DNA of 64,000 nucleotides from Thermococcus alcaliphilus (GTDB lineage Archaea > Methanobacteriota_B > Thermococci > Thermococcales > Thermococcaceae): assembly GCF_024054535.1 (NCBI RefSeq), contig NZ_JAMXLV010000020.1, forward strand, positions 248,001 through 312,000, written 5' to 3'. Position 1 is the first letter of the stretch. Every line of letters begins with the position of its first letter. The notes under the pieces were generated by a model, which searched no databases, had not been told where the DNA came from, and worked only from the letters and a program-made list of their open reading frames with translations. Both the position numbers and the translations under genes were made by a program. Shown in pieces: positions 12,762-21,656 of this stretch.

Positions 12762-13670
12762 TCATCCCTCAAAGGGAAGCTTGCCAAACTCCACTTCCAG
12801 TGTTTGGGTTGTCCTCCATACAAATGCTCCTTCTCCTTTGAGAACATGCTTTCTCATATCTCCTTGAGGCACTCCGTTAGCTTCGTAAATCATGCTCTGC
12901 AGGTCTGGATCGTTGTAAAGAACCAGCGTTGGTCCCGGTATGTTAAGGAGATTTTCCGCAACGTATCTGGAGCCTAATACTGTAACCCTCCCCCTCATGG
13001 GTTGAGTCAATAGAGGAATGGCTGCACTTCCGGGAGTTGTGTAGAAAAGAACCGCCGCATCATCGATTCCTATTAAAGTGCTCCTTCTATCTTTAACAGC
13101 CGCCGCAAGGATTAGAAACGCCATTCCCACGGTACTTATGCTGTAGGTTTTTCCAAAGTCAACCAAAATGCTCTTGCCGAGCTCGGGAACTTCTCCCTCA
13201 AAAAAGGTCTCATCGAGGGAAGTGTAGACTTCTCTTATAACCTCCCCGTACTGTTCCTTTGACTTGGCTACATCTGCTACACTTTTAACTTTGCTCCCAA
13301 GAACGTCAGCATAGAGTTTATCGGTAAGAGAGCGATCCAATCCGTATATGGTCTGAATTATCGTTGATGCTGTGTAAAAGTCCTTCAAGAGGCCTTTTTT
13401 AACCATCTTTATGGGGTCAAGGCCTGTAGGCTTGTTGTCCTCTATTTCTATTATAGTGTCGAATTTCTCCTTAGGATACTTTCCCCTTGTATCAAAGAAA
13501 ATCAGCCCGTATTCTTTTTCGAGAAATTGATCTCCAATGTAATCTATAACTCTCGTGGGGTCATCATCGATGCCAAAAACCTTTAGAGTTCTGCCGTGGT
13601 AAACCGGATCGTAGTATATCTCCTTCTCTTCGTATTCCAAAATCTTTACAGCAAGTTTGCTGTACTTCAT
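12762..13670 (-). CDS. Conserved archaeal protein of unknown function
   Basis: A 302-residue soluble protein starting MKYSKLAVKIL, with GGTG six bases before the ATG at 13670; codons up to 13682 are probably not used. The predicted pattern is mixed alpha/beta, with a segment resembling a P-loop-less ATPase/recombinase-like core (YGLIFFDTRGKYP, then LGKSILVDFGKTYSISTVGMAFLILAAAV). There is no signal peptide or membrane span. It forms an operon with the MBL-fold enzyme. I do not recognise the family. Confidence 0.65.
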   Translation of the reverse strand: MKYSKLAVKILEYEEKEIYYDPVYHGRTLKVFGIDDDPTRVIDYIGDQFLEKEYGLIFFDTRGKYPKEKFDTIIEIEDNKPTGLDPIKMVKKGLLKDFYTASTIIQTIYGLDRSLTDKLYADVLGSKVKSVADVAKSKEQYGEVIREVYTSLDETFFEGEVPELGKSILVDFGKTYSISTVGMAFLILAAAVKDRRSTLIGIDDAAVLFYTTPGSAAIPLLTQPMRGRVTVLGSRYVAENLLNIPGPTLVLYNDPDLQSMIYEANGVPQGDMRKHVLKGEGAFVWRTTQTLEVEFGKLPFEG

Positions 13671-13732
13671 AGAGTTCACCAAAAAGAATAGGGGGAATAA
13701 GTATAAACGGCTTTCCCTTAGAAGTTAAAGGA

Positions 13733-14191
13733 TTACCATCCCCCTTGTCTTCTGCCTCCAAAGCCTCCTCCTTTTCTCATTCCGCCGCTACCTCTTCCAC
13801 GACCCATTCCTCTGCCCATGCCTGGGCCTATTCCTCCTTCTGGCCCAAAGACTGCCGTAGTAAGCTCTCCCCTGAGGAAGGCCTCAACGGCTTCTCTAAC
13901 TGTCATAGTGGCTGGAGCCGAGATCATCCTTATGCCTGCAGCCTGGAGCACTCCAGAGGAGTTGGGACCGAACTGACCGGCGATGACAACATCTGCACCC
14001 TGGTCTATAACGAACTGCGTTGCTGTAACTCCTGCTCCCCTAGGCTGTGAGTAACCCGGGTTTGGAACGACCTGAACGTTGGCTATTTGGTTGTTCTCAA
14101 CGTCCACGATCGTGAACGTCGGCGTCCTTCCAAAAGCAGTGTTCACCCTATCCTCAAGACCTCCAGTAACGGTTGACACAATTATCCTCAT
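13733..14191 (-). CDS. NifX/dinitrogenase-cofactor-family protein with Gly/Arg-rich tail
   Basis: A 152-residue protein starting MRIIVSTVTGGL; GGAGGTGAT precedes the ATG at 14191. Residues 1-110 are the NifX/NafY/orange-protein fold (TAFGRTPTFTIVDVENN, then FVIDQGADVVIAGQFGPN and VLQAAGIRM), which binds iron-sulfur or molybdenum-containing clusters in known members. The last 35 residues are a Met-Gly-Arg repeat tail (MGRGMGRGRGSGG), a feature of this family in anaerobic archaea. Its promoter holds shared element A (14212-14247). It is one of three NifX-like genes here, beside MinD/ferredoxin ATPases. The cluster bound is unknown. Confidence 0.85.
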   Translation of the reverse strand: MRIIVSTVTGGLEDRVNTAFGRTPTFTIVDVENNQIANVQVVPNPGYSQPRGAGVTATQFVIDQGADVVIAGQFGPNSSGVLQAAGIRMISAPATMTVREAVEAFLRGELTTAVFGPEGGIGPGMGRGMGRGRGSGGMRKGGGFGGRRQGGW

Positions 14192-14211
14192 CTCCATCAC
14201 CTCCACGTGAA

Positions 14212-14247
14212 TTAGGGTAACCTAAGTTAAAAATCTTGTGCATATGC
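14212..14247. promoter_or_regulatory. Shared regulatory element A
   Basis: TTAGG-GTAA-CCTAA (14212-14225) and TTGTGCATATGC (14236-14247) flank an AT-rich TATA-like stretch (AAGTTAAAAATC). Reading leftward toward the NifX-like gene at 14191, the order is GCATATGC, TATA, TTAGG/CCTAA dyad, ribosome binding site. The same order occurs at 15956-15996 read rightward and 17403-17443 read rightward. The dyad therefore sits about where transcription would begin, as expected of a repressor site (inference). Confidence 0.65.
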
Positions 14248-14313
14248 TCATTACACAAGTCTGTTTCAAAATGCTTAAAAATATCTTATCGATGTTACCC
14301 ATGGGGTGAGCAA

Positions 14314-14451
14314 GTGCTCAAAATTGAGAACCTTCACGTTTCGGTTGAGAGAAGGGCGATTCTCAATGATGTGAAAGTCATCGAGTTCTTTCAGCGGGTT
14401 TTAGTGGAGATAGGGAAGATAATCCAGCTAGCAGTAAGTGGAAGTATGTAA
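14314..14451 (+). pseudogene. Truncated SufC-like ATPase start (remnant)
   Basis: A GTG start at 14314 with GGGGTGAG just upstream opens a frame reading VLKIENLHVSVERRAILNDV, which is the N-terminal strand pair of SufC-type ABC ATPases (MLKxENLHVSVEGxxIL). The Walker A motif that should follow about 15 residues later is absent; the frame continues with an unrelated EFFQRVLVEIGKII segment and stops after 45 residues. This is best read as the leftover start of an iron-sulfur assembly ATPase gene after a deletion. It lies between the NifX-like gene and the methyltransferase. Confidence 0.55.
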
Positions 14452-14470
14452 GCTCCTTCTGGTGTTTTTT

Positions 14471-15082
14471 ATGTACCGTGAAAAGTACGATAGGATAGCA
14501 GGCTTTTATGAGCTCCTAGAAAAGCCACTGGACAGGGTCTTCAATCCTCTCCGTGAGAGGGCCATCTCCTTTGCCAAGGGAAGAACGCTCGAGATCGGGA
14601 TCGGTACTGGAAAGACCCTTCATTATTATCCTCAGGGTGTTGAGCTTTATGCCGTTGACGGCTCGGAGAAAATGCTTGAAATGGCCAAGAGGAGGGCAGA
14701 AGAACTCGGAATAGAAGTGAAGCTCATAGTTGCTGAAGCAGAGCGTCTTCCATTTCCCGATAACTACTTTGACACAGTAGTCTCTTCCTTCGTCTTCTGC
14801 ACCGTTCCTAACCCTGATAAGGCAATGGATGAGATAAAACGAGTACTCAAACCCGGTGGAAGGGTTATCTTTCTCGAACACACGAAGAGCGAGAGCAGGA
14901 TAGTGAACTACCTCTTCCTTTTCCCGATGAAACTTATCTTGAAGCCGCTCCTCGACGACAACCCGCTGAGAGAGACCCACAAACTTGTTAGGAAGTATTT
15001 CAAAGTGGAAAAAGAGGAGAGGTACTACAAGGGCATTGTCAGGCTTATAGTAGCCCGAAATAACGCCTCCTTGGACTTATAA
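14471..15082 (+). CDS. Class I SAM-dependent methyltransferase (UbiE-like)
   Basis: A 203-residue protein starting MYREKYDRIAGFYE; GGTG lies six bases before the ATG at 14471. Motif I is LEIGIGTGKTLHYYP near residue 41, motif II/III LYAVDGSEKMLEMAKRRAEE, and motif IV LPFPDNYFDTVVSSFVFCTV with PNPDKAMDEIKRVLKPGGRV after it. The C-terminus (YKGIVRLIVARN) is typical of small Methyltransf_11 enzymes. Substrate unknown. Its 3' end overlaps the convergent gene at 15045-15290 by 38 bases. Confidence 0.85.
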   Translation: MYREKYDRIAGFYELLEKPLDRVFNPLRERAISFAKGRTLEIGIGTGKTLHYYPQGVELYAVDGSEKMLEMAKRRAEELGIEVKLIVAEAERLPFPDNYFDTVVSSFVFCTVPNPDKAMDEIKRVLKPGGRVIFLEHTKSESRIVNYLFLFPMKLILKPLLDDNPLRETHKLVRKYFKVEKEERYYKGIVRLIVARNNASLDL

Positions 15083-15290
15083 AGCCCCGGATAATATAAA
15101 CTAGCACGAGGGCTATAACATAGGTCGAGGCTACAAGAAAGAGTTTGAAGAGCAGGTAGAGCATCAAGAGCAGGAATATTAGGTCTATTATCCTGTAAAG
15201 GCCAAAGCGGCCGAGAAAATTTCCATAATAATATGAATGGGCAACAAATTGTCTACCTTGCGCCATGCCCCTTCTGTAACCGCGTGGCAT
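15045..15290 (-). CDS. Small membrane protein with basic MPRG start
   Basis: An 81-residue protein starting MPRGYRRGMAQG (ATG at 15290, GAGGTG six bases upstream). Residues about 33-68 contain two adjacent hydrophobic helices with the end RGFISPRRRYF. The MPRG-x-RRG start resembles that of the DUF134 protein at 21294-21656 and of other small proteins found with NifX-like genes. It lies 43 bases downstream of the NifX-like gene (15334-15936) and is probably in the same transcript. Function unknown. Confidence 0.6.
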   Translation of the reverse strand: MPRGYRRGMAQGRQFVAHSYYYGNFLGRFGLYRIIDLIFLLLMLYLLFKLFLVASTYVIALVLVYIIRGFISPRRRYFGLL

Positions 15291-15333
15291 TTTCAGCACC
15301 TCAAAAAGCTAAAAAAGGTAAAAGGAAGTTGCT

Positions 15334-15936
15334 TTACCACCAGCCGTAATACCAGCGGAGGGCTCTCCTGCTGGGCATTCCCGTCCACGGGCAGTAGCCG
15401 AGCCTTGCTCCCCAGCCTCTTCCGCCTCTACCCCATCCTCTGCCAAAACCGCGTCCTCTTCCCCAGCCTCTACCCCATCCATAGCCGAAGCCGTAGGCTG
15501 GGTAGGCGGGATACACTGGGGCAGCTGGTGCCACTGGTGTTGCTGGGGTCACTGGAGTAACTGGAGCAACCGGAGCCTGTGGAGCCGGTGCTGTGAACTG
15601 GCTTGCTCTACCGCTCACAACGCTCTTTATGGCATCCTCAACAGGGGTTCCAGGGGCGACCTGGTAGAGTTTAATGCCTGCTGCCTGTATCGCGCCGAAT
15701 GCATTCGGGCCGACTTGCGGGGCGATTATAGCTTCAACGCCCTCGTTGATGAGGGTCTGCACTGCCATTGGGCCGGCACCTCCACCAACCATTGCAGCGC
15801 TGTTCTGGATGACCTTCTCGCTGACTATGTTGCCATTTTCATCAACATCCGCTATGTAGAATGCTGGTGCTCTTGCGAAGACCGGAGCAACTGTATCTTC
15901 CCTACCTCCACCATTTGTTGGAACAGCAATCCTCAT
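15334..15936 (-). CDS. NifX-family protein with Pro/Ala linker and Gly/Arg/Trp-rich tail
   Basis: A 200-residue protein starting MRIAVPTNGGGRED; GGTGGTG precedes the ATG at 15936. Residues 1-110 are the NifX/orange-protein fold (VAPVFARAPAFYIADVDENG, NEGVEAIIAPQVGPNAFGAIQAAG). A Pro-Ala-Thr-Val repeat linker follows (about 120-145), then a tail rich in Gly, Arg, Trp and Tyr (GYGWGRGWGRGRGFGR) ending YCPWTGMPSRRALRWYYGWW. The tail contains the only Cys. Its divergent promoter with the gene at 16041 carries element B. The metal cluster and partner are unknown; MinD/ferredoxin proteins nearby are likely partners (inference). Confidence 0.85.
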   Translation of the reverse strand: MRIAVPTNGGGREDTVAPVFARAPAFYIADVDENGNIVSEKVIQNSAAMVGGGAGPMAVQTLINEGVEAIIAPQVGPNAFGAIQAAGIKLYQVAPGTPVEDAIKSVVSGRASQFTAPAPQAPVAPVTPVTPATPVAPAAPVYPAYPAYGFGYGWGRGWGRGRGFGRGWGRGGRGWGARLGYCPWTGMPSRRALRWYYGWW

Positions 15937-15955
15937 ATCCACCACCTCTATTATT

Positions 15956-15996
15956 TTGTGCATATGCACAACATTTAAACTTTTCGGTTTCCCTAA
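15956..15996. promoter_or_regulatory. Shared regulatory element B (perfect 16-bp palindrome plus dyad)
   Basis: TTGTGCATATGCACAA (15956-15971) is a perfect palindrome. It is followed by a TATA-like CATTTAAAC and then TTCGG-TTTC-CCTAA (15983-15996), one base off the TTAGG-N4-CCTAA form. It lies between the divergent NifX-like genes at 15936 (minus) and 16041 (plus). A second TATA (TCTTATAAAC, about 15998-16007) sits just downstream on the plus side. The layout matches elements A and C. Confidence 0.65.
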
Positions 15997-16040
15997 CTCT
16001 TATAAACCAGTTTCACGGAACAACCCTCTGGGGATATTAC

Positions 16041-16457
16041 ATGGAAAAGAGATGCCTCAAGGTCGCGTTCGGAATGGAAGATGATGAACACCTCATCGAT
16101 GCCCATTATGGAGACTCAGAGTTCTTCGCGATCTACAAAATCTGCGAAGACGGGAGCGTAAAGCTCCTCGAAAAGAGACACAACAAAGCTAAAGACTTTG
16201 AAGAGGAACACGATGAAGGACACGGTGACCCAAGGAAGTTTAAAGCCGTTGTGAGCCAGCTCCTCGACGTTGATATCTTAGCTGCATTTAGAATGGGACC
16301 AAACTTCCTCCGGATCCGTGACAAAACCAACAAGGTGGCTTTCTTCACGAAGACGAGAGACCTGAAACTAGCACTCCGAAGAGTCATAGAGAACTTCGAT
16401 GACCTCTGGGAACAGGTGCAGGTGAAAAAAGCTGAAAAACCACCAATAGAGGAGTAA
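16041..16457 (+). CDS. NifX-like protein, third copy
   Basis: A 138-residue protein from the ATG at 16041 (MEKRCLKVAFGMEDDE). It keeps the NifX pattern: DAHYGDSEFFAIYKI near residue 18, FKAVVSQLLDVDILAAFRMGPN near 75, and a C-terminal helix. It differs from the other two in carrying a charged His/Glu/Asp-rich insertion (EEEHDEGHGD) and no Gly/Arg tail. The upstream frame is open to 15861, but those codons overlap the divergent promoter. It is divergent from 15334-15936 under element B. Confidence 0.75.
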   Translation: MEKRCLKVAFGMEDDEHLIDAHYGDSEFFAIYKICEDGSVKLLEKRHNKAKDFEEEHDEGHGDPRKFKAVVSQLLDVDILAAFRMGPNFLRIRDKTNKVAFFTKTRDLKLALRRVIENFDDLWEQVQVKKAEKPPIEE

Positions 16458-16459
16458 AG

Positions 16460-16573
16460 ATGAATCTACCTCTGCCCTTAACGAGAACGCTCCAACCCTT
16501 TAGTCGAGATGTTGTCGTTAGTCTTATGGTCAAGAGTTCAAAAGAATCCCTAAATCCTTTTTGGGAGGGCTAG
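16460..16573 (+). CDS. Possible 37-residue small protein
   Basis: An ATG at 16460, three bases after the NifX-like stop, has GGAG at ideal distance and opens 37 codons (MNLPLPLTRTLQPFSRDVVV...WEG) before TAG. The good ribosome binding site and coupling favour translation; the absence of any recognised family and the short length weigh against it. It could be a degraded gene start. Confidence 0.25.
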   Translation: MNLPLPLTRTLQPFSRDVVVSLMVKSSKESLNPFWEG

Positions 16574-16613
16574 AGTTAAAGTCTCAATCACCAATTTTTA
16601 TAGGAGGGGTAAG

Positions 16614-17126
16614 ATGAAAGAGGTTAATAACAATTTGGCTTTGGAAGAAGTATGCTACCACCCGATTGGGATCATCCGCAGCCCCTTCAGGGAGCCAAAA
16701 GATGTCCCCATACAGGCCTCCGCTGCAAGGGGAATTAGAGGAACCGTTGAGATATTTCCCGAGTTCGAGGAAGGATTAAAGGACATCGAAGGGTTCTCTC
16801 ATTTGATTTTGGTCTACCACTTTCACAGGGCGAGGTTTAGAAGTCTCCTTGTGAGACCATACATGGACGAGAACTACCACGGCGTATTCGCCACGAGAGC
16901 ACCTGCGCGTCCAAATCCCATCGGCATCTCGATAGTAAGGCTCGTTAAAAGGCGCGGGAACGTTCTCATAGTTGAGGATGTTGATATCCTCGATGGAACT
17001 CCTCTCTTGGATATAAAGCCCTACGTACCCGATTTCGACCACAGGGACGGTGTGAAAACCGGCTGGCTCGAAGAAAACGTCCACAAACTCCCAAAGGCAA
17101 AAGATGATGGGAGGTTCGCGAAATAA
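16614..17126 (+). CDS. trmO: TsaA-like/TrmO tRNA m6t6A37 methyltransferase family
   Basis: A 170-residue protein; GGAGGGG lies upstream of the ATG at 16614. The sequence has the TsaA (VirR/YaeB) barrel signature: YHPIGIIRSPFREPKDVPIQ at residue 16, GFSHLILVYHFHRA near 62, and the conserved ATRAPARPNPIGISIVRL near 95, followed by DGTPLLDIKPYVPDFD. In bacteria TrmO methylates t6A at position 37 of certain tRNAs; archaeal members are less studied and could act on another methyl acceptor. Family certain, exact substrate inferred. Confidence 0.85.
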   Translation: MKEVNNNLALEEVCYHPIGIIRSPFREPKDVPIQASAARGIRGTVEIFPEFEEGLKDIEGFSHLILVYHFHRARFRSLLVRPYMDENYHGVFATRAPARPNPIGISIVRLVKRRGNVLIVEDVDILDGTPLLDIKPYVPDFDHRDGVKTGWLEENVHKLPKAKDDGRFAK

Positions 17127-17127
17127 C

Positions 17128-17350
17128 TACAGAACCTCCACTACGTACTTCCAATTTCCTTCCTCAAATCCCCTAAGGAAGTTAAGCGTGAGGTCGAGAA
17201 ATTTTCCCGTTCCAACGTTTATCTCCGCTCCCTTTCCCTTTTTAGGCAGAAGTCTTTTGATAGCCTCAAGCTCGGAGAGGTATGCCTGCTTCTTTCAAAC
17301 TAGTCCTTGTACCTGTAGCGGTGTTTTTCGAAGAACTCAATCTTCGGCAT
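17128..17350 (-). pseudogene. Degraded SAM-methyltransferase gene
   Basis: On the minus strand, MPKIEFFEKHRYRYKD begins at 17350 and meets a TAG. In another frame the sequence resumes as AYLSELEAIKRLLPKKGKG, then AEINVGTGKF (a motif I of a class I methyltransferase) and jumps at once to a C-terminal piece, FLRGFEEGNWKYVVEVL, followed by a stop. The start, motif I and C-terminus belong to a protein of normal size about three times longer, so at least one frameshift and one large internal deletion have occurred. It lies next to element C. Confidence 0.7.
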
Positions 17351-17402
17351 AACTAACTCCTAATTAATGCTTTATCACACAACTGAGGAATGGGGAGTGA
17401 AC

Positions 17403-17443
17403 GAGCATATGCACAAAACTTTTAAGGTTTTAGGTTTCCCTAA
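17403..17443. promoter_or_regulatory. Shared regulatory element C
   Basis: GAGCATATGCACAAAA (17403-17418), TATA-like CTTTTAAGG, then TTAGG-TTTC-CCTAA (17430-17443) lie directly before the GGAGGTGAGGTG ribosome binding site of the first MinD/ferredoxin gene (17460). The order and spacing match elements A and B; dyad centres are 25, 26 and 28 bases from the GCATATGC centre in A, B and C. Confidence 0.65.
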
Positions 17444-17459
17444 CTGTGGAGGTGAGGTG

Positions 17460-18320
17460 ATGCAGATAGCAGTGAGCGGAGGTAAAGGCGGAACAGGAAA
17501 ATCAACTGTAGCCATTAACCTTGCAATAGCCTTACGGGAGTATTTCGACTTAGCCTTGGCGGATTTGGACGTCGAAGCACCAAACGATCATATTCTCCTT
17601 GGAGTTGAGCTGCAGAACGAGGAACCCGTTCATATGTTCATGCCGCGCTTTGATTATTCGAAGTGCATAAAATGCAGAAAATGTGCGGAAGTTTGTGAAG
17701 AAAACGCAATAATCACAATGAGGGATGGAACACCGTTCTTAATGCCCACTCTATGTTCTGGGTGCAGGGCTTGTGAGATAGTCTGCCCAGTTACGGGAGC
17801 AATATTGGGAGGAGAGAAGCTTATGGGACATACCTACCTCACCGAGACACCTTATGGGTCTCCTTTAGTTACCGGAAAACTGCTCGAAGGAGAAGAGCGG
17901 GCAATGCCTATTGTAACCGCAGCAAAAAAGAGGGCGAAAACCCTTAACAAAGAGCTTTTGCTAGTGGACACTGCCGCCGGTACAAGCAACACTGTTTCCA
18001 AGGCATTGGAAGATTCAAAGCTTCTCATAGCAGTTACAGAGCCTACTCCACTTGGCCTTCATGATTTGACTCTTATCCTCGAGCTCGCCAAATTAATGGG
18101 CATAGAGGCATGGGTTGTTGTCAATAGGGCTGATATTGGAGAGAAAAAGAGAGTAGAAGAGATAGTGCAGAAATACAACGCCGAGATAATTGGGGAAATC
18201 CCATACAGCGAAGCTATTATCCAGAGTTATGTTAAAGGAGAACCTATAATCCTAACCGATAAAAAGGAAGCGAAAATCTTCAAAGGCCTTGCCGAAAGGG
18301 TAGCCAGTTATTTGGGGTGA
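17460..18320 (+). CDS. MinD-superfamily P-loop ATPase with inserted ferredoxin domain (first of pair)
   Basis: A 286-residue protein starting MQIAVSGGKGGTGKST, with GGAGGTGAGGTG abutting the ATG. The deviant Walker A (GGKGGTGKST) is at residue 7. Residues about 62-115 hold an inserted 2x[4Fe-4S] ferredoxin (CIKCRKCAEVCEENA, CSGCRACEIVCPVTGA). The ATPase continues with LLVDTAAGTSNTVSKAL and a PYSEAI segment. This architecture (COG1149) is that of the Orp MinD-type proteins of the orange-protein complex in Desulfovibrio and of other anaerobes. It overlaps by a few bases the spacer of the next gene and is translationally coupled to it. Confidence 0.9.
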   Translation: MQIAVSGGKGGTGKSTVAINLAIALREYFDLALADLDVEAPNDHILLGVELQNEEPVHMFMPRFDYSKCIKCRKCAEVCEENAIITMRDGTPFLMPTLCSGCRACEIVCPVTGAILGGEKLMGHTYLTETPYGSPLVTGKLLEGEERAMPIVTAAKKRAKTLNKELLLVDTAAGTSNTVSKALEDSKLLIAVTEPTPLGLHDLTLILELAKLMGIEAWVVVNRADIGEKKRVEEIVQKYNAEIIGEIPYSEAIIQSYVKGEPIILTDKKEAKIFKGLAERVASYLG

Positions 18321-18325
18321 TTGAA

Positions 18326-19213
18326 ATGCAGATCGCGATAGCGAGTGGAAAAGGTGGCGTAGGAAAATCGAGCGTAGCTGCTTCACTCATATACCTCCTC
18401 AAAGATGAGTATTCCCTAATAGCAGTTGATGCTGATGCCGACGCCCCAAACCTCGACCTGCTCTTTGGGGTTGAAAGGTGGGAAGAGGAAAAAGAGCTCA
18501 TAGGTGCAAAAGTGGCAAGGATAAACACCAGCACCTGCATAAGGTGCGGTATATGCGCTGAAAGATGTCCCTATGACTGCATAAAGATTGTTGATGGAAA
18601 TTACGTGGTTAATGAACTAACTTGTGAGGGTTGTGGAGTTTGCAAGCTCGTATGTCCTGTGGAAGGGGTAATCACTTTAGAGGAAGTCCGTTCAGGCATA
18701 GTTAGGAAAACAACAACCAAATACGGCTTCCCACTAATTTCAGCCCAGCTCGATGTGGGAAGACCAAACAGTGGAAAGCTCGTTACGGAGGAAAAAGAGT
18801 GGGCTAAACGGATCATGAAGGAGAAAGGAATAGAGCACATGATAGTTGATTCGGCAGCCGGAATAGGATGCCAAGTGATAGCAAGCCTTGGAGGGGCGGA
18901 TGTAGCGATTCTTGTGGCAGAACCAACTCCCGCTTCGCTAAGTGACGTGAAAAGGGTTTACAAGGTTGTCCAGCACTTCAGAGAGCCAGCATACCTTATA
19001 ATAAACAAAGCTGATCTGAATCCGGGCTTTAAGGGACTTTATGAATTCGCCGAGGAGGAGGGCATACCAATAATTGGTGAGATACCATACGATAGGGCAC
19101 TCCCAAAAAGCATGGTAATGCTTAAGCCGGTAGTTGAAGTATTTCCGGATTCAAAAGCCTCTATAGTGCTCAAAGAAATAGCGGAAGTCGTTAAAGAGGA
19201 GATTTTAAAGTAG
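18326..19213 (+). CDS. MinD-superfamily P-loop ATPase with inserted ferredoxin domain (second of pair)
   Basis: A 295-residue protein starting MQIAIASGKGGVGKSSV; GGGGTGAT lies four bases before the ATG at 18326. It is a paralogue of the preceding gene with the same plan: Walker A at residue 8, ferredoxin insert (CIRCGICAERCPYDCI, CEGCGVCKLVCPVEGV), then VDSAAGIGCQVIASLGGADV and a GEIPYDRALPK end. Paired copies suggest a heterodimer, as for Orp MinD proteins. The 3' end overlaps the convergent radical-SAM gene by nine bases. Confidence 0.9.
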   Translation: MQIAIASGKGGVGKSSVAASLIYLLKDEYSLIAVDADADAPNLDLLFGVERWEEEKELIGAKVARINTSTCIRCGICAERCPYDCIKIVDGNYVVNELTCEGCGVCKLVCPVEGVITLEEVRSGIVRKTTTKYGFPLISAQLDVGRPNSGKLVTEEKEWAKRIMKEKGIEHMIVDSAAGIGCQVIASLGGADVAILVAEPTPASLSDVKRVYKVVQHFREPAYLIINKADLNPGFKGLYEFAEEEGIPIIGEIPYDRALPKSMVMLKPVVEVFPDSKASIVLKEIAEVVKEEILK

Positions 19214-20158
19214 CTCCCTGCTCTTTAATTTTCTCATATAGAATCTCTTTCCTCCGTATTCCAGTTCTATGAGCTTTCCTTCTGCAATGAGCTTCTCCAC
19301 AACATCCCATTCAGCGTTGGCTTTTTTCAAGAGCTCTTTTAGGGCATCTTCGCGCATTGGATGAACTGCAGCAATGCTGAGTATATCCTCTTCCACATTT
19401 CCGGTGAAGGCAAAGGCATTCCCCTCGTACCCTATAAGATACTCAACCTTTTCTTCCCCAATTGCCTCTGCAAATGTCTGGAAAGCCAGGTTAATAACTT
19501 CTTCCCTAGCTGGCTTCACCCATTTTTCCCACGGCGGCCTTGTAGGAACTGCTATGTAGGCTATATCCGGATTTAACTTCCTTAAAAACTTGGCAATTTT
19601 CTTAAACTCGTCCCCATAATTTATCCCATCTATAAGCATTGTCTCAGTCACGAGCTTGCCCTTGAACTCTTTTCTGAACTCTAGCATCCCCTCAAGAATT
19701 TTATCGAGTTTCAAGCTCTTATGTGGGCGATCTACTTTTCTCCACAAATCCTCAGTCACCGCATCGAGCTTTAGGGAAACAAAATCGAGCTTTAGGAGAT
19801 CTTCTCTAACATCCTCCCTCCAGATGAGAGAGGAGTTCGTCAGAATTGCCAGCGGAATATTGAGAGACTTCAGCATCTCTATTTCCTTTCCCAAGTTTGC
19901 ATCGAGAGTAGGTTCGCCATCGGGTACAAACGTAAGGTAATCTATGTGCTCTCCCTTTTCTTTAGCTTCCTCCACCTTTCTTTTAACCTCTTCAAAGACA
20001 AGCCCAGGTGGATAGAAAGACCTTCTCTCAATTTCCATTCTCAAGGTTCTCCCAATCTGGCAGTAAACGCATGCATAAGAGCAGACTTTATCTGGGATAT
20101 TGTTTATTCCCAGGCTTTTGCCCAACCGTCTTGAGGGCACGGGGCCAAAGGCAATCAT
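19205..20158 (-). CDS. Radical SAM protein (COG0731-type Fe-S oxidoreductase)
   Basis: A 317-residue protein starting MIAFGPVPSRRLGKSLG, with GGTGA upstream. The radical-SAM cysteines are CSYACVYCQ near residue 27, followed by DYLTFVPDGEPTLDANLG (a GGEP-like motif, here DGEP) and a LVTETMLIDGINY strand. The GPVPSRRLG start is diagnostic of this archaeal/bacterial family found with NifX/MinD genes. The C-terminal 60 residues form a winged-helix-like segment (KKANAEWDVVEKLIAEGKLIEL). The reaction is not known. Its promoter carries the dyad at 20172-20185. Confidence 0.85.
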   Translation of the reverse strand: MIAFGPVPSRRLGKSLGINNIPDKVCSYACVYCQIGRTLRMEIERRSFYPPGLVFEEVKRKVEEAKEKGEHIDYLTFVPDGEPTLDANLGKEIEMLKSLNIPLAILTNSSLIWREDVREDLLKLDFVSLKLDAVTEDLWRKVDRPHKSLKLDKILEGMLEFRKEFKGKLVTETMLIDGINYGDEFKKIAKFLRKLNPDIAYIAVPTRPPWEKWVKPAREEVINLAFQTFAEAIGEEKVEYLIGYEGNAFAFTGNVEEDILSIAAVHPMREDALKELLKKANAEWDVVEKLIAEGKLIELEYGGKRFYMRKLKSRELL

Positions 20159-20171
20159 AGACTCACCAGTG

Positions 20172-20185
20172 TTAGGTTAGCCTAA
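20172..20185. promoter_or_regulatory. Shared dyad D (TTAGG-N4-CCTAA)
   Basis: TTAGG-TTAG-CCTAA lies between the divergent radical-SAM genes. Read leftward, a TATA-like CTTTAAACG (about 20188-20196) precedes the dyad, which is then followed by the GGTGA of the gene starting at 20158: the same TATA-dyad-RBS order as in A and C. The GCATATGC partner is absent here. Confidence 0.6.
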
Positions 20186-20240
20186 GGGCGTTTAAAGATT
20201 TTGGAAACCTTGATTAAGATGAAGCCCCAAGAGATTATTG

Positions 20241-21335
20241 ATGAGATGCAAAATATGTGGATATAAATCTGAGGAAATTAGCGAATCAATTGGGGTCTGC
20301 GTTAACTGCTTGCGAGAAAATCCGGAAGAAGCGCTAAAAATATCAAGGGAATCCCACCGGAAATGGCGTAGGCTCATAGGTTTGCCTCCAGAAGTGCCGA
20401 GAGAAGGCATTCAATGCCTGCTTTGCGTGAACGAATGCAAAATTCCGGAGGGAAGTTCCGGCTACTGCGGGGTAATGTGGAACAGGAAAGGAAAGTTAGT
20501 CCCCATAACTGGAAGCTTTGATAAGGCATATCTTCATTGGTATCTCGATCCTCATCCAACAAACTGTGTCGCAAGACCAGTTTGTCCAGAAAAAGAACAT
20601 AGAGGATTTTACAACCTAGCAGTCTTCTTCGCCGGATGCAACTTAGATTGTCTTTTCTGCCAGAACATAGAGCATAAATACATGATAAAAAACGGGAGCG
20701 TAGATCCCTTTGAAGGGGTTGTCATAAGCTCAAAGGAGCTAGTAGATATAGCAATGAGAAGTAGAGTATCATGTGTGTGCTACTTTGGCGGCGATCCTAC
20801 TCCACACAGCCCCTATGCAATAAAAACTTCAAGAGAAATTCTCAAACGAGCCGAGAAAGTTGGAGCAATAAAAAGAATTTGCTGGGAAACGAATGGGCTT
20901 GAAAATCCTAAGATAATTCGAGAGATGGCAAGAATAAGCCTTGAAAGTGGGGGAATAGTCAAGATTGACTGGAAAGCCTATACACCTAGTGTTTACGAGG
21001 CCTTAACTGGAATTAACGGGGAGAAAGCCCTTCAGAGAGTAAAGGAGAACATAAGGATTATAGTCTCAATGGACGAGAGAAAGGAGCCTCCCCTTTTAGT
21101 AGTTAGTACTCTTGTTGTGCCCCATTACATAGATGGGAAAGAGGTCGGTGGAATAGCGAGGTACCTTGCCCAGCTGAATCCGGATATACCATACGTTCTC
21201 TTAGCATTTGCACCGCAGCATCTAATGCACGACGTGCCAACTACCAGTAAGAAACAAATGGAAAGGGTTTACACAATCGCCAGAAAAGAAGGACTAAAAC
21301 GAGTCTTCATCGGTAACCTCTGGCTCCTGAGATGA
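20241..21335 (+). CDS. Radical SAM protein, PflA/AmmeMemo-like
   Basis: A 364-residue protein starting MRCKICGYKSEE (ATG at 20241; the preceding TTG is an alternative). An N-terminal zinc ribbon (CKICG..CVNC) and a second group (CLLCVNECKIPEG) precede the radical-SAM site CNLDCLFCQ near residue 137. Further motifs are CVCYFGGDPTPHSPYAI and KRICWETNG. This is the pyruvate-formate-lyase-activase-like family. There is no clear ribosome binding site, and a TATA lies about 45 bases upstream, so the leader is short. It may activate a glycyl-radical or other partner; none is encoded nearby. It overlaps the convergent DUF134 gene by 42 bases. Confidence 0.85.
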   Translation: MRCKICGYKSEEISESIGVCVNCLRENPEEALKISRESHRKWRRLIGLPPEVPREGIQCLLCVNECKIPEGSSGYCGVMWNRKGKLVPITGSFDKAYLHWYLDPHPTNCVARPVCPEKEHRGFYNLAVFFAGCNLDCLFCQNIEHKYMIKNGSVDPFEGVVISSKELVDIAMRSRVSCVCYFGGDPTPHSPYAIKTSREILKRAEKVGAIKRICWETNGLENPKIIREMARISLESGGIVKIDWKAYTPSVYEALTGINGEKALQRVKENIRIIVSMDERKEPPLLVVSTLVVPHYIDGKEVGGIARYLAQLNPDIPYVLLAFAPQHLMHDVPTTSKKQMERVYTIARKEGLKRVFIGNLWLLR

Positions 21336-21656
21336 TCTGGGGATTTCATTTCCCTGGGCAAGGATTATTAGCTCTCTCCCCTCAACAAGCATTTGGGCCA
21401 CCTTTTTTCTTGCAGAGCTTAGAGCCCTCCACACAGTGCCCCTTGAGACACCCATTCTCTGCCCGGCTTCCTCTTGAGTTAACCCCTCATAATCCACCAG
21501 CCTTAACGCCTCAAACTCCTCGTAGGTCATGAAAATCGGAGGCTGCGGAGGGCCAAAAGGGGGCTTAGCTGGGTAGAAATGCCTAACCTCAGGTATGAAA
21601 CCAATAAATCGCATTTTTCGTCTTCTACCTCTTCTCCATCCCATCCCGCGTGGCAT
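21294..21656 (-). CDS. DUF134-family DNA-binding protein
   Basis: A 120-residue protein starting MPRGMGWRRGRRRKMRFIGF. After a basic tail it has the DUF134 (COG1342) core: PIFMTYEEFEALRLVDYEGL, then a sigma-like helix-turn-helix LTQEEAGQRMGVSRGTVWRALSSARKKVA at residues about 58-88. Members occur with NifX-like and MinD/ferredoxin genes in anaerobes. It is the only DNA-binding protein in this cluster and therefore the best candidate for the protein that binds elements A-D (inference). Its own upstream region has only loose similarity to the element. Confidence 0.85.
   Translation of the reverse strand: MPRGMGWRRGRRRKMRFIGFIPEVRHFYPAKPPFGPPQPPIFMTYEEFEALRLVDYEGLTQEEAGQRMGVSRGTVWRALSSARKKVAQMLVEGRELIILAQGNEIPRSSQEPEVTDEDSF

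Follow-up and report, generated by a model that had tools for sequence, protein, structure and literature searches.

The question raised by the stretch of DNA analysed here (the window, a 64-kb piece of contig C20 from a 1.89-Mb Thermococcales genome, for which the genome collection gives Thermococcales/Thermococcus as the closest named relatives) is what controls the storage protein IssA, and why sulfide and iron are both needed for its expression. IssA, or SipA, of P. furiosus is an iron-sulfur (thioferrate) storage protein (PMC5524996). Between 13.7 and 21.7 kb the window carries, by Pfam, three Nitro_FeMo-Co (NifX-like) genes, two genes for MinD/4Fe-4S ATPases, two radical-SAM genes and one gene of the family DUF134, and two short elements recur in the promoters of this cluster: the dyad TTAGG-N4-CCTAA and a palindrome centred on GCATATGC. 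The dyad is already known, being of the DtxR type, and the palindrome is the new part, probably a new operator, that of DUF134. Our reading, to which we give a probability of about 0.75, is that DUF134 would be a transcription factor family of both domains, serving the NifX/MinD iron-sulfur genes of anaerobes through the palindrome centred on GCATATGC, that its helix-to-operator code would be readable, that a fused NifX domain would be the sensor in some bacteria, and that together with DtxR it would supply the missing control of IssA-like storage in Thermococcales.

The sites stand exactly where the original prediction, made from the letters of this DNA, had placed them. GCATATGC is exact at 14240, 15960 and 17405, with 25, 26 and 28 bp between its centre and that of the adjoining dyad, and the full palindrome spans 12 bp, being perfect as GTGCATATGCAC at the middle site and present as GAGCATATGCAC at the other two. 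Dyads A, C and D are exact and dyad B, TTCGGTTTCCCTAA, has one mismatch (Table 1). The order of elements is GCATATGC, TATA, dyad at A, B (rightward) and C, and TATA, dyad, start at D, in both cases as had been described. The gene content was likewise as predicted, with a second radical-SAM gene added by Pfam. The dyads are not remarkable for their number, which is ordinary (four at no more than one mismatch in 64 kb vs 2.8 in shuffles), but for their promoter position, their coupling to GCATATGC and their conservation. Three GCATATGC in 64 kb exceed chance (0.34 expected, 0/100 shuffles), and the probability of three dyads with GCATATGC no more than 40 bp away is about 6e-9. In the source genome, which was examined by pattern searches and in chosen stretches, there are 14 exact dyads against one for the reversed pattern, and 27 GCATATGC against six. 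Exact dyads number 3-15 per genome, above the reversed control or, in one genome, equal to it, and exact GTGCATATGCAC is found in 58 of 61 Thermococcales genomes at 0-3 per genome (reversed control 0). Both elements and their spacing are kept among relatives while the flanking DNA diverges, and with shared sites conserved at orthologous Thermococcales promoters the original prediction survives its own refutation test on this point. Upstream of MinD1 in 18 other Thermococcales, for example, [GC]NTATGCACAAA, TATA and TTAGG/TTCGG N4 CCTAA follow one another at near-fixed spacing within diverged flanks, and at the NifXB promoters the one-mismatch form TTAGGN4CCGAA is itself conserved among orthologues.

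The dyad had been taken for an undescribed element, and in this the original prediction did not hold. From its sequence and its company it is almost certainly a DtxR operator, a predicted single-dimer form of the tox-type operator. It precedes feoA in 30 of 30 Thermococcales promoters, always exact, and dtxR in 29 of 29 at no more than one mismatch (one conserved mismatch). Upstream of the cluster orthologues it is found at NifXC in 20/20, NifXA in 42/45 (at no more than one mismatch), NifXB in 31/38, MinD1 in 32/34 and radical-SAM 1 in 16/17, and the reversed pattern in the same promoters gives about 0. At the orthologous Thermococcales promoters of DUF134, TrmO, the KaiC-labelled neighbours and the gene at 12762-13682 there is no dyad, nor is there one upstream of the operon-internal MinD2 (0/32 orthologues), and radical-SAM 2 has one only where it diverges from radical-SAM 1. 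Elsewhere in the source genome exact dyads precede feoA-feoB, the genes for a ZnuA-type binding protein and a ZIP transporter, the GTP cyclohydrolase gene folE2, two peroxiredoxin genes and others, and the only strong DtxR gene has a one-mismatch dyad (C22:24929-24942) 6-19 bases before it and a product that exceeds the cut-offs of both PF01325 and PF02742 (DNA-binding and metal/dimer domains). Dyads occur again at feoA, ZnuA, ZIP, folE2 and radical-SAM 1 in a second genus, there also at an Mrp/NBP35-type gene, and a DtxR orthologue is present in 61/61 Thermococcales genomes, single in most.

A TTAGG...CCTAA dyad before feoAB, dtxR and metal transporters, together with a DtxR conserved in all genomes, agrees with DtxR/IdeR operators and archaeal DtxR-family regulons, whereas its presence before NifX/IssA-like, MinD and radical-SAM genes may go beyond the known regulons. 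DtxR of P. furiosus is reported to be iron-responsive and to bind the promoters of feoAB and ftr1 (Zhu et al. 2013, J Bacteriol), and Leyn and Rodionov are said to have reconstructed archaeal DtxR regulons in 2015. Zhu et al. 2013 is cited in PMC12827226. Known C. diphtheriae DtxR sites such as tox start with TTAGG and end with CCTAA (PMC524172), the form found here having 14 bp and the tox operator 19 bp. A second, weaker dyad, TTAGGCTCACCAAA, is found in many feoA promoters, some 50 bp upstream and over the transcription factor B recognition element (BRE; loci L208-L212 and L221-L230). A further exact dyad, at G000:C24:18265-18278, lies just upstream of a gene for a type III RuBisCO-like protein, by reading of its sequence, and may be a regulon member or chance.

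The palindrome defines a second, separate putative regulon. The radical-SAM 1 and feoA promoters, compared across relatives, have no palindrome, so that radical-SAM 1 falls in the DtxR regulon only. The single regulon originally proposed thus gives way to two overlapping ones, because the dyad is DtxR-type while the link to DUF134 attaches to the GCATATGC palindrome. Among 52 GTGCATATGCAC sites read, about 18 lie at a further NifX-like gene, NifX-D, 14 at cation-efflux genes of the cation diffusion facilitator (CDF) type, 12 at NifXB, three near a second Feo operon (Feo2), two at MinD1 and one at an Mrp-type gene, the rest being single cases. The palindrome is conserved as GTGCATATGCAC at nearly all NifXB promoters, and that of NifXA is kept as GAGC[AT]TATGCA(C)AA in Thermococcus relatives and degenerate in Pyrococcus. 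Its place in the promoter differs between targets: it abuts the BRE from upstream at NifXA, NifX-D and MinD1, and at NifXB, CDF, Mrp and Feo2 it closely follows TATA. The CDF genes with GTGCATATGCAC in this latter position (L282, L283, L299, L302, L304-L307, L309, L312 and L315; PF01545 confirmed for L302) suggest that metal efflux may belong to the same regulon. In the source genome the only other exact GTGCATATGCAC is in the promoter of NifX-D (L266:3701-4111, G000:C16), which is near SufB/SufC-like genes, as identified by reading translations, and a few kb from another NifX-like gene that adjoins a cation-efflux gene. In a Pyrococcus-type genome, GTGCATATGCAC at L297 (G021:C1:896328) precedes a very short reading frame rich in Arg and Gly (MPRGWGRGRRWFGRG), with MinD genes nearby.

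The palindrome is associated with DUF134 in three phyla outside Thermococcales, and distant loci retrieved via MinD1 had GCATATGC directly before DUF134. Four DUF134 promoters of Lentisphaerota carry TTAGCATATGCCAATAA or TGGCATATGCCAATAA at -10, and a Bathyarchaeota DUF134 gene is preceded by a related site, two TTATGCACA in tandem, the second against the TATA box as in Thermococcales. In Desulfobacterota, the phylum of one Desulfarculaceae genome, DUF134 occurs in 108 of 297 genomes. When all 256 palindromic 8-mers were ranked over 87 non-redundant DUF134 upstream regions of this phylum, GCATATGC came first with 23/87, followed by ATATATAT with 8 (shuffle mean 0.44, maximum 3), and 49 of the 87 score at least 15/20 to TTATGAGCATATGCTCATAA (null 0.24%). 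Many of the sites fall between -35 and -10 or on top of -10, and many take the form TTGACA-N3-TTATGAGCATATGCTTATAAT; in the loci read, the genes behind DUF134 are often NifX-like and MinD-like. Some Desulfobacterota encode DUF134-Nitro_FeMo-Co fusions (L352, L355 and L359; Pfam-confirmed for L352), with the operator GAATATATATTC, the helix SQPTFHR and MinD genes following them. The window protein is a clear member of DUF134/UPF0251 (PF02001; NF003257 'hypothetical protein'), a family for which the databases and papers searched describe neither operator nor regulon; queries for DUF134, UPF0251, COG1342 or the literal 12-mer found nothing relevant in the literature. If true, the proposal made here would give function, operator and target set to a family still named 'hypothetical' or 'DUF', in Bacteria as well as Archaea.

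A further link lies in the recognition helix. In the window protein, residues 71-77 (SRGTVWR) are at the start of an AlphaFold helix (72-92), and its Foldseek matches are sigma region 4 domains; a search by sequence found no solved DUF134 structure. The helix SR[QPA]TFGR pairs with GAGC, SQPTFHR with GAAT (8/8) and SR[PS]TFSR with GAAC (3/3), the Desulfobacterota site variants being GAGCATATGCTC for SR[QPA]TFGR and GAATATATATTC for SQPTFHR proteins. The best cases are SRQTFGN, which pairs with TTGGC/TTAGC in 8/8 from two phyla, and SRGTVWR, which pairs with TATGCAC in two archaeal groups. The mutual information between helix and operator is 1.187 vs 0.932 for the best of 5000 shuffles, a test that ignores relatedness. 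Independent contrasts on the tree are concordant where they differ and too few for significance, and the tree program warns that the window protein and the Bathyarchaeota DUF134 may have been joined as long branches. There being only two (supported) to six such contrasts, the match supports, without proving, direct binding by DUF134.

Table 1. Genes and putative operator sites of the cluster, in window positions.
Feature	Position	Strand	Description
NifXA	13733..14191	-	Nitro_FeMo-Co, 152 aa, isoelectric point (pI) 11.0, Gly/Arg-rich tail, IssA-like; PF02579 E=1.3e-21
Dyad A, DtxR-type putative operator	14212..14225	-	Exact; TATA / dyad / start codon of NifX/IssA-like gene A (NifXA)
Palindrome GAGCATATGCAC, DUF134-type putative operator	14238..14249	-	Directly upstream of BRE/TATA of gene A
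NifXB	15334..15939	-	201 aa, Nitro_FeMo-Co and Gly/Arg/Trp-rich tail, single Cys, IssA-like; PF02579 E=1.6e-20
Palindrome GTGCATATGCAC, perfect	15958..15969		Leftward NifXB: downstream of TATA; rightward NifXC: upstream of TATA
Dyad B TTCGGTTTCCCTAA	15983..15996		Overlaps BRE (CCGAAA) of NifXB; NifXC start 44 bp on
NifXC	16041..16457	+	138 aa, acidic, without Gly/Arg tail; PF02579 E=2.6e-12
Palindrome GAGCATATGCAC	17403..17414	+	Upstream of BRE/TATA of MinD1; aligned footprint in relatives
Dyad C	17430..17443	+	Exact; TATA / dyad / MinD1 start
MinD1	17460..18320	+	MinD/ParA ATPase with 4Fe-4S insert
MinD2	18329..19213	+	Second MinD/4Fe-4S ATPase; same operon as MinD1
Radical-SAM protein 1	19205..20158	-	PF04055; DtxR regulon only
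Dyad D, TTAGGCTAACCTAA on - strand	20172..20185	-	Exact; TATA / dyad / radical-SAM 1 start
Radical-SAM protein 2	20247..21335	+	AmmeMemoRadiSam-like, score below cut-off
DUF134 protein	21294..21656	-	PF02001 E=4.4e-26, 91.7 bits vs cut-off 27; sigma region-4-like helix-turn-helix; helix SRGTVWR residues 71-77

As judged from the sites, their conservation, the gene sets and the association of the palindrome with DUF134 genes, iron-sulfur storage and assembly genes are likely to be under the joint control of DtxR and DUF134, acting through separate operators. Iron-loaded, Fe(II)-responsive DtxR would block transcription from a dyad between TATA and start, or over the BRE at NifXB, and its targets would together comprise the IssA-like NifX, MinD/4Fe-4S and radical-SAM genes, feoAB, metal transporters and dtxR itself, all to be released once free Fe(II) is no longer sensed. 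We infer a DUF134 dimer that would bind GTGCATATGCAC via the SRGTVWR recognition helix; that DUF134 binds the palindrome at all we consider very probable. Its mode, activator or repressor, may be set by the position of the site, a proposal for which the odds are roughly even: DUF134 could activate from just upstream of BRE/TATA, as at NifXA, NifX-D and MinD1, and repression is expected from sites downstream of TATA, as at NifXB, the cation-efflux genes, Feo2 and Mrp, and from sites that cover a bacterial -10, as at its own gene. More tentatively, the signal could be Fe-S or iron-sulfide status, as some Desulfobacterota DUF134 proteins carry a fused NifX-like domain. The control of IssA becomes a directly testable question, and a promoter with two sensors, DtxR responding to free Fe(II) and DUF134 possibly to Fe-S status, would answer it naturally.

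Other explanations of the two elements have to be weighed against this one. The palindrome could be read by another conserved regulator, with DUF134 merely a target, since an operator before a gene does not prove that its product binds there, and in Thermococcales, where DUF134 lacks a palindrome of its own, the linkage is by neighbourhood only (no more than 20 kb from NifXA in 45/61 genomes). We find this unlikely, because DUF134 is the helix-turn-helix protein shared beside the sites in Desulfobacterota, Lentisphaerota, Bathyarchaeota and many Thermococcales, its helix tracks the operator variant, with the same helix and the same variant in different phyla, and the site lies in the bacterial DUF134 genes' own promoter, as for a self-repressor. 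Reading GCATATGC upstream of TATA as part of the core promoter, or as an extended BRE, would fit its abutting the BRE at NifXA, NifX-D and MinD1, and is very improbable for a strict palindrome that is rare (0-3 per genome), stands downstream of TATA at the NifXB and cation-efflux promoters and recurs in bacterial sigma70-type promoters.

Hardly credible is the single regulon in which the dyad is bound by DUF134 and GCATATGC serves as an accessory promoter element, even though both elements occur together at three window promoters and DUF134 is close to the cluster in most genomes: the dyad is at every tested feoA and dtxR promoter and at metal transporters, and the DUF134 genes of distant bacteria carry the palindrome instead. 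As a dyad binder, DUF134 is rejected on this distribution (feoA 30/30, dtxR 29/29, not DUF134); what stands of its predicted role is that it very probably regulates the cluster via the GCATATGC palindrome. A different doubt concerns the metal, as DtxR might read the dyad as a Mn- or Zn-responsive regulator and not as an iron sensor. Among models, the DtxR of the source genome comes closest to those of MntR, below their cut-offs, MntR structures are likewise its best matches, and ZnuA and ZIP genes are among the dyad targets, but feoA is the most constant of these and the P. furiosus protein reportedly responds to iron at feoAB and ftr1, so that we regard a Mn or Zn response as doubtful.

Several observations weigh against control by DUF134 and DtxR as proposed here. 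The helix-operator match largely follows clades. About 30 of the 87 Desulfobacterota upstream regions lack a clear site, including nearly the whole group with the helix SRPTVTR, in the promoters of which no operator was recognisable (L335, L337, L338, L345-L348, L351, L353, L357 and L367). The Thermococcales DUF134 promoters read have no clear conserved palindrome, so that autoregulation is not conserved there. DUF134 is present in 61/61 Thermococcales genomes, which makes its co-occurrence with the palindrome uninformative, and in 16 of them, including most of the Pyrococcus type, NifXA has no DUF134 gene within 20 kb. Nothing comparable was seen at crenarchaeal loci with NifX/MinD, and a palindrome scan of 26 Crenarchaeota and other non-Thermococcales archaeal loci gave only the Bathyarchaeota one as convincing. 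Finally, sulfide induces IssA of P. furiosus only under iron sufficiency (PMC5524996), where simple repression by DtxR predicts otherwise; this pattern would need a second sensor, or a lowering of free Fe(II) by sulfide, beyond DtxR.

The cluster had also been called ORP-like, after the orange-protein complex. It does share with the ORP complex of Desulfovibrio (PMC3897727, PMC6345978) the combination, in anaerobes, of NifX-like proteins with two MinD-type ATPases, but the Desulfovibrio ORP operons are controlled by sigma54/DVU2106 (PMC3897727) and the complex has MrpORP (PMC6345978), whereas no MrpORP fusion is found among the window cluster proteins (NF041136 best score 53 vs cut-off 450). 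NifXA and NifXB look more like IssA than ORP. Both have a Nitro_FeMo-Co N-terminal domain, a basic Gly/Arg/Trp-rich tail and a high pI (9.7 for NifXB), and the one Cys of NifXB is in the tail; NifXA differs in having no Cys, and NifXC, without a tail, fails the comparison, which was made with the described features of P. furiosus IssA. Among the iron and Fe-S genes of the P. furiosus sulfide response, IssA is the most highly upregulated (PMC5524996). Two IssA homologues of M. voltae increase along with FeoB and DtxR (PMC8516115), as shared control by DtxR would predict, though in another order.

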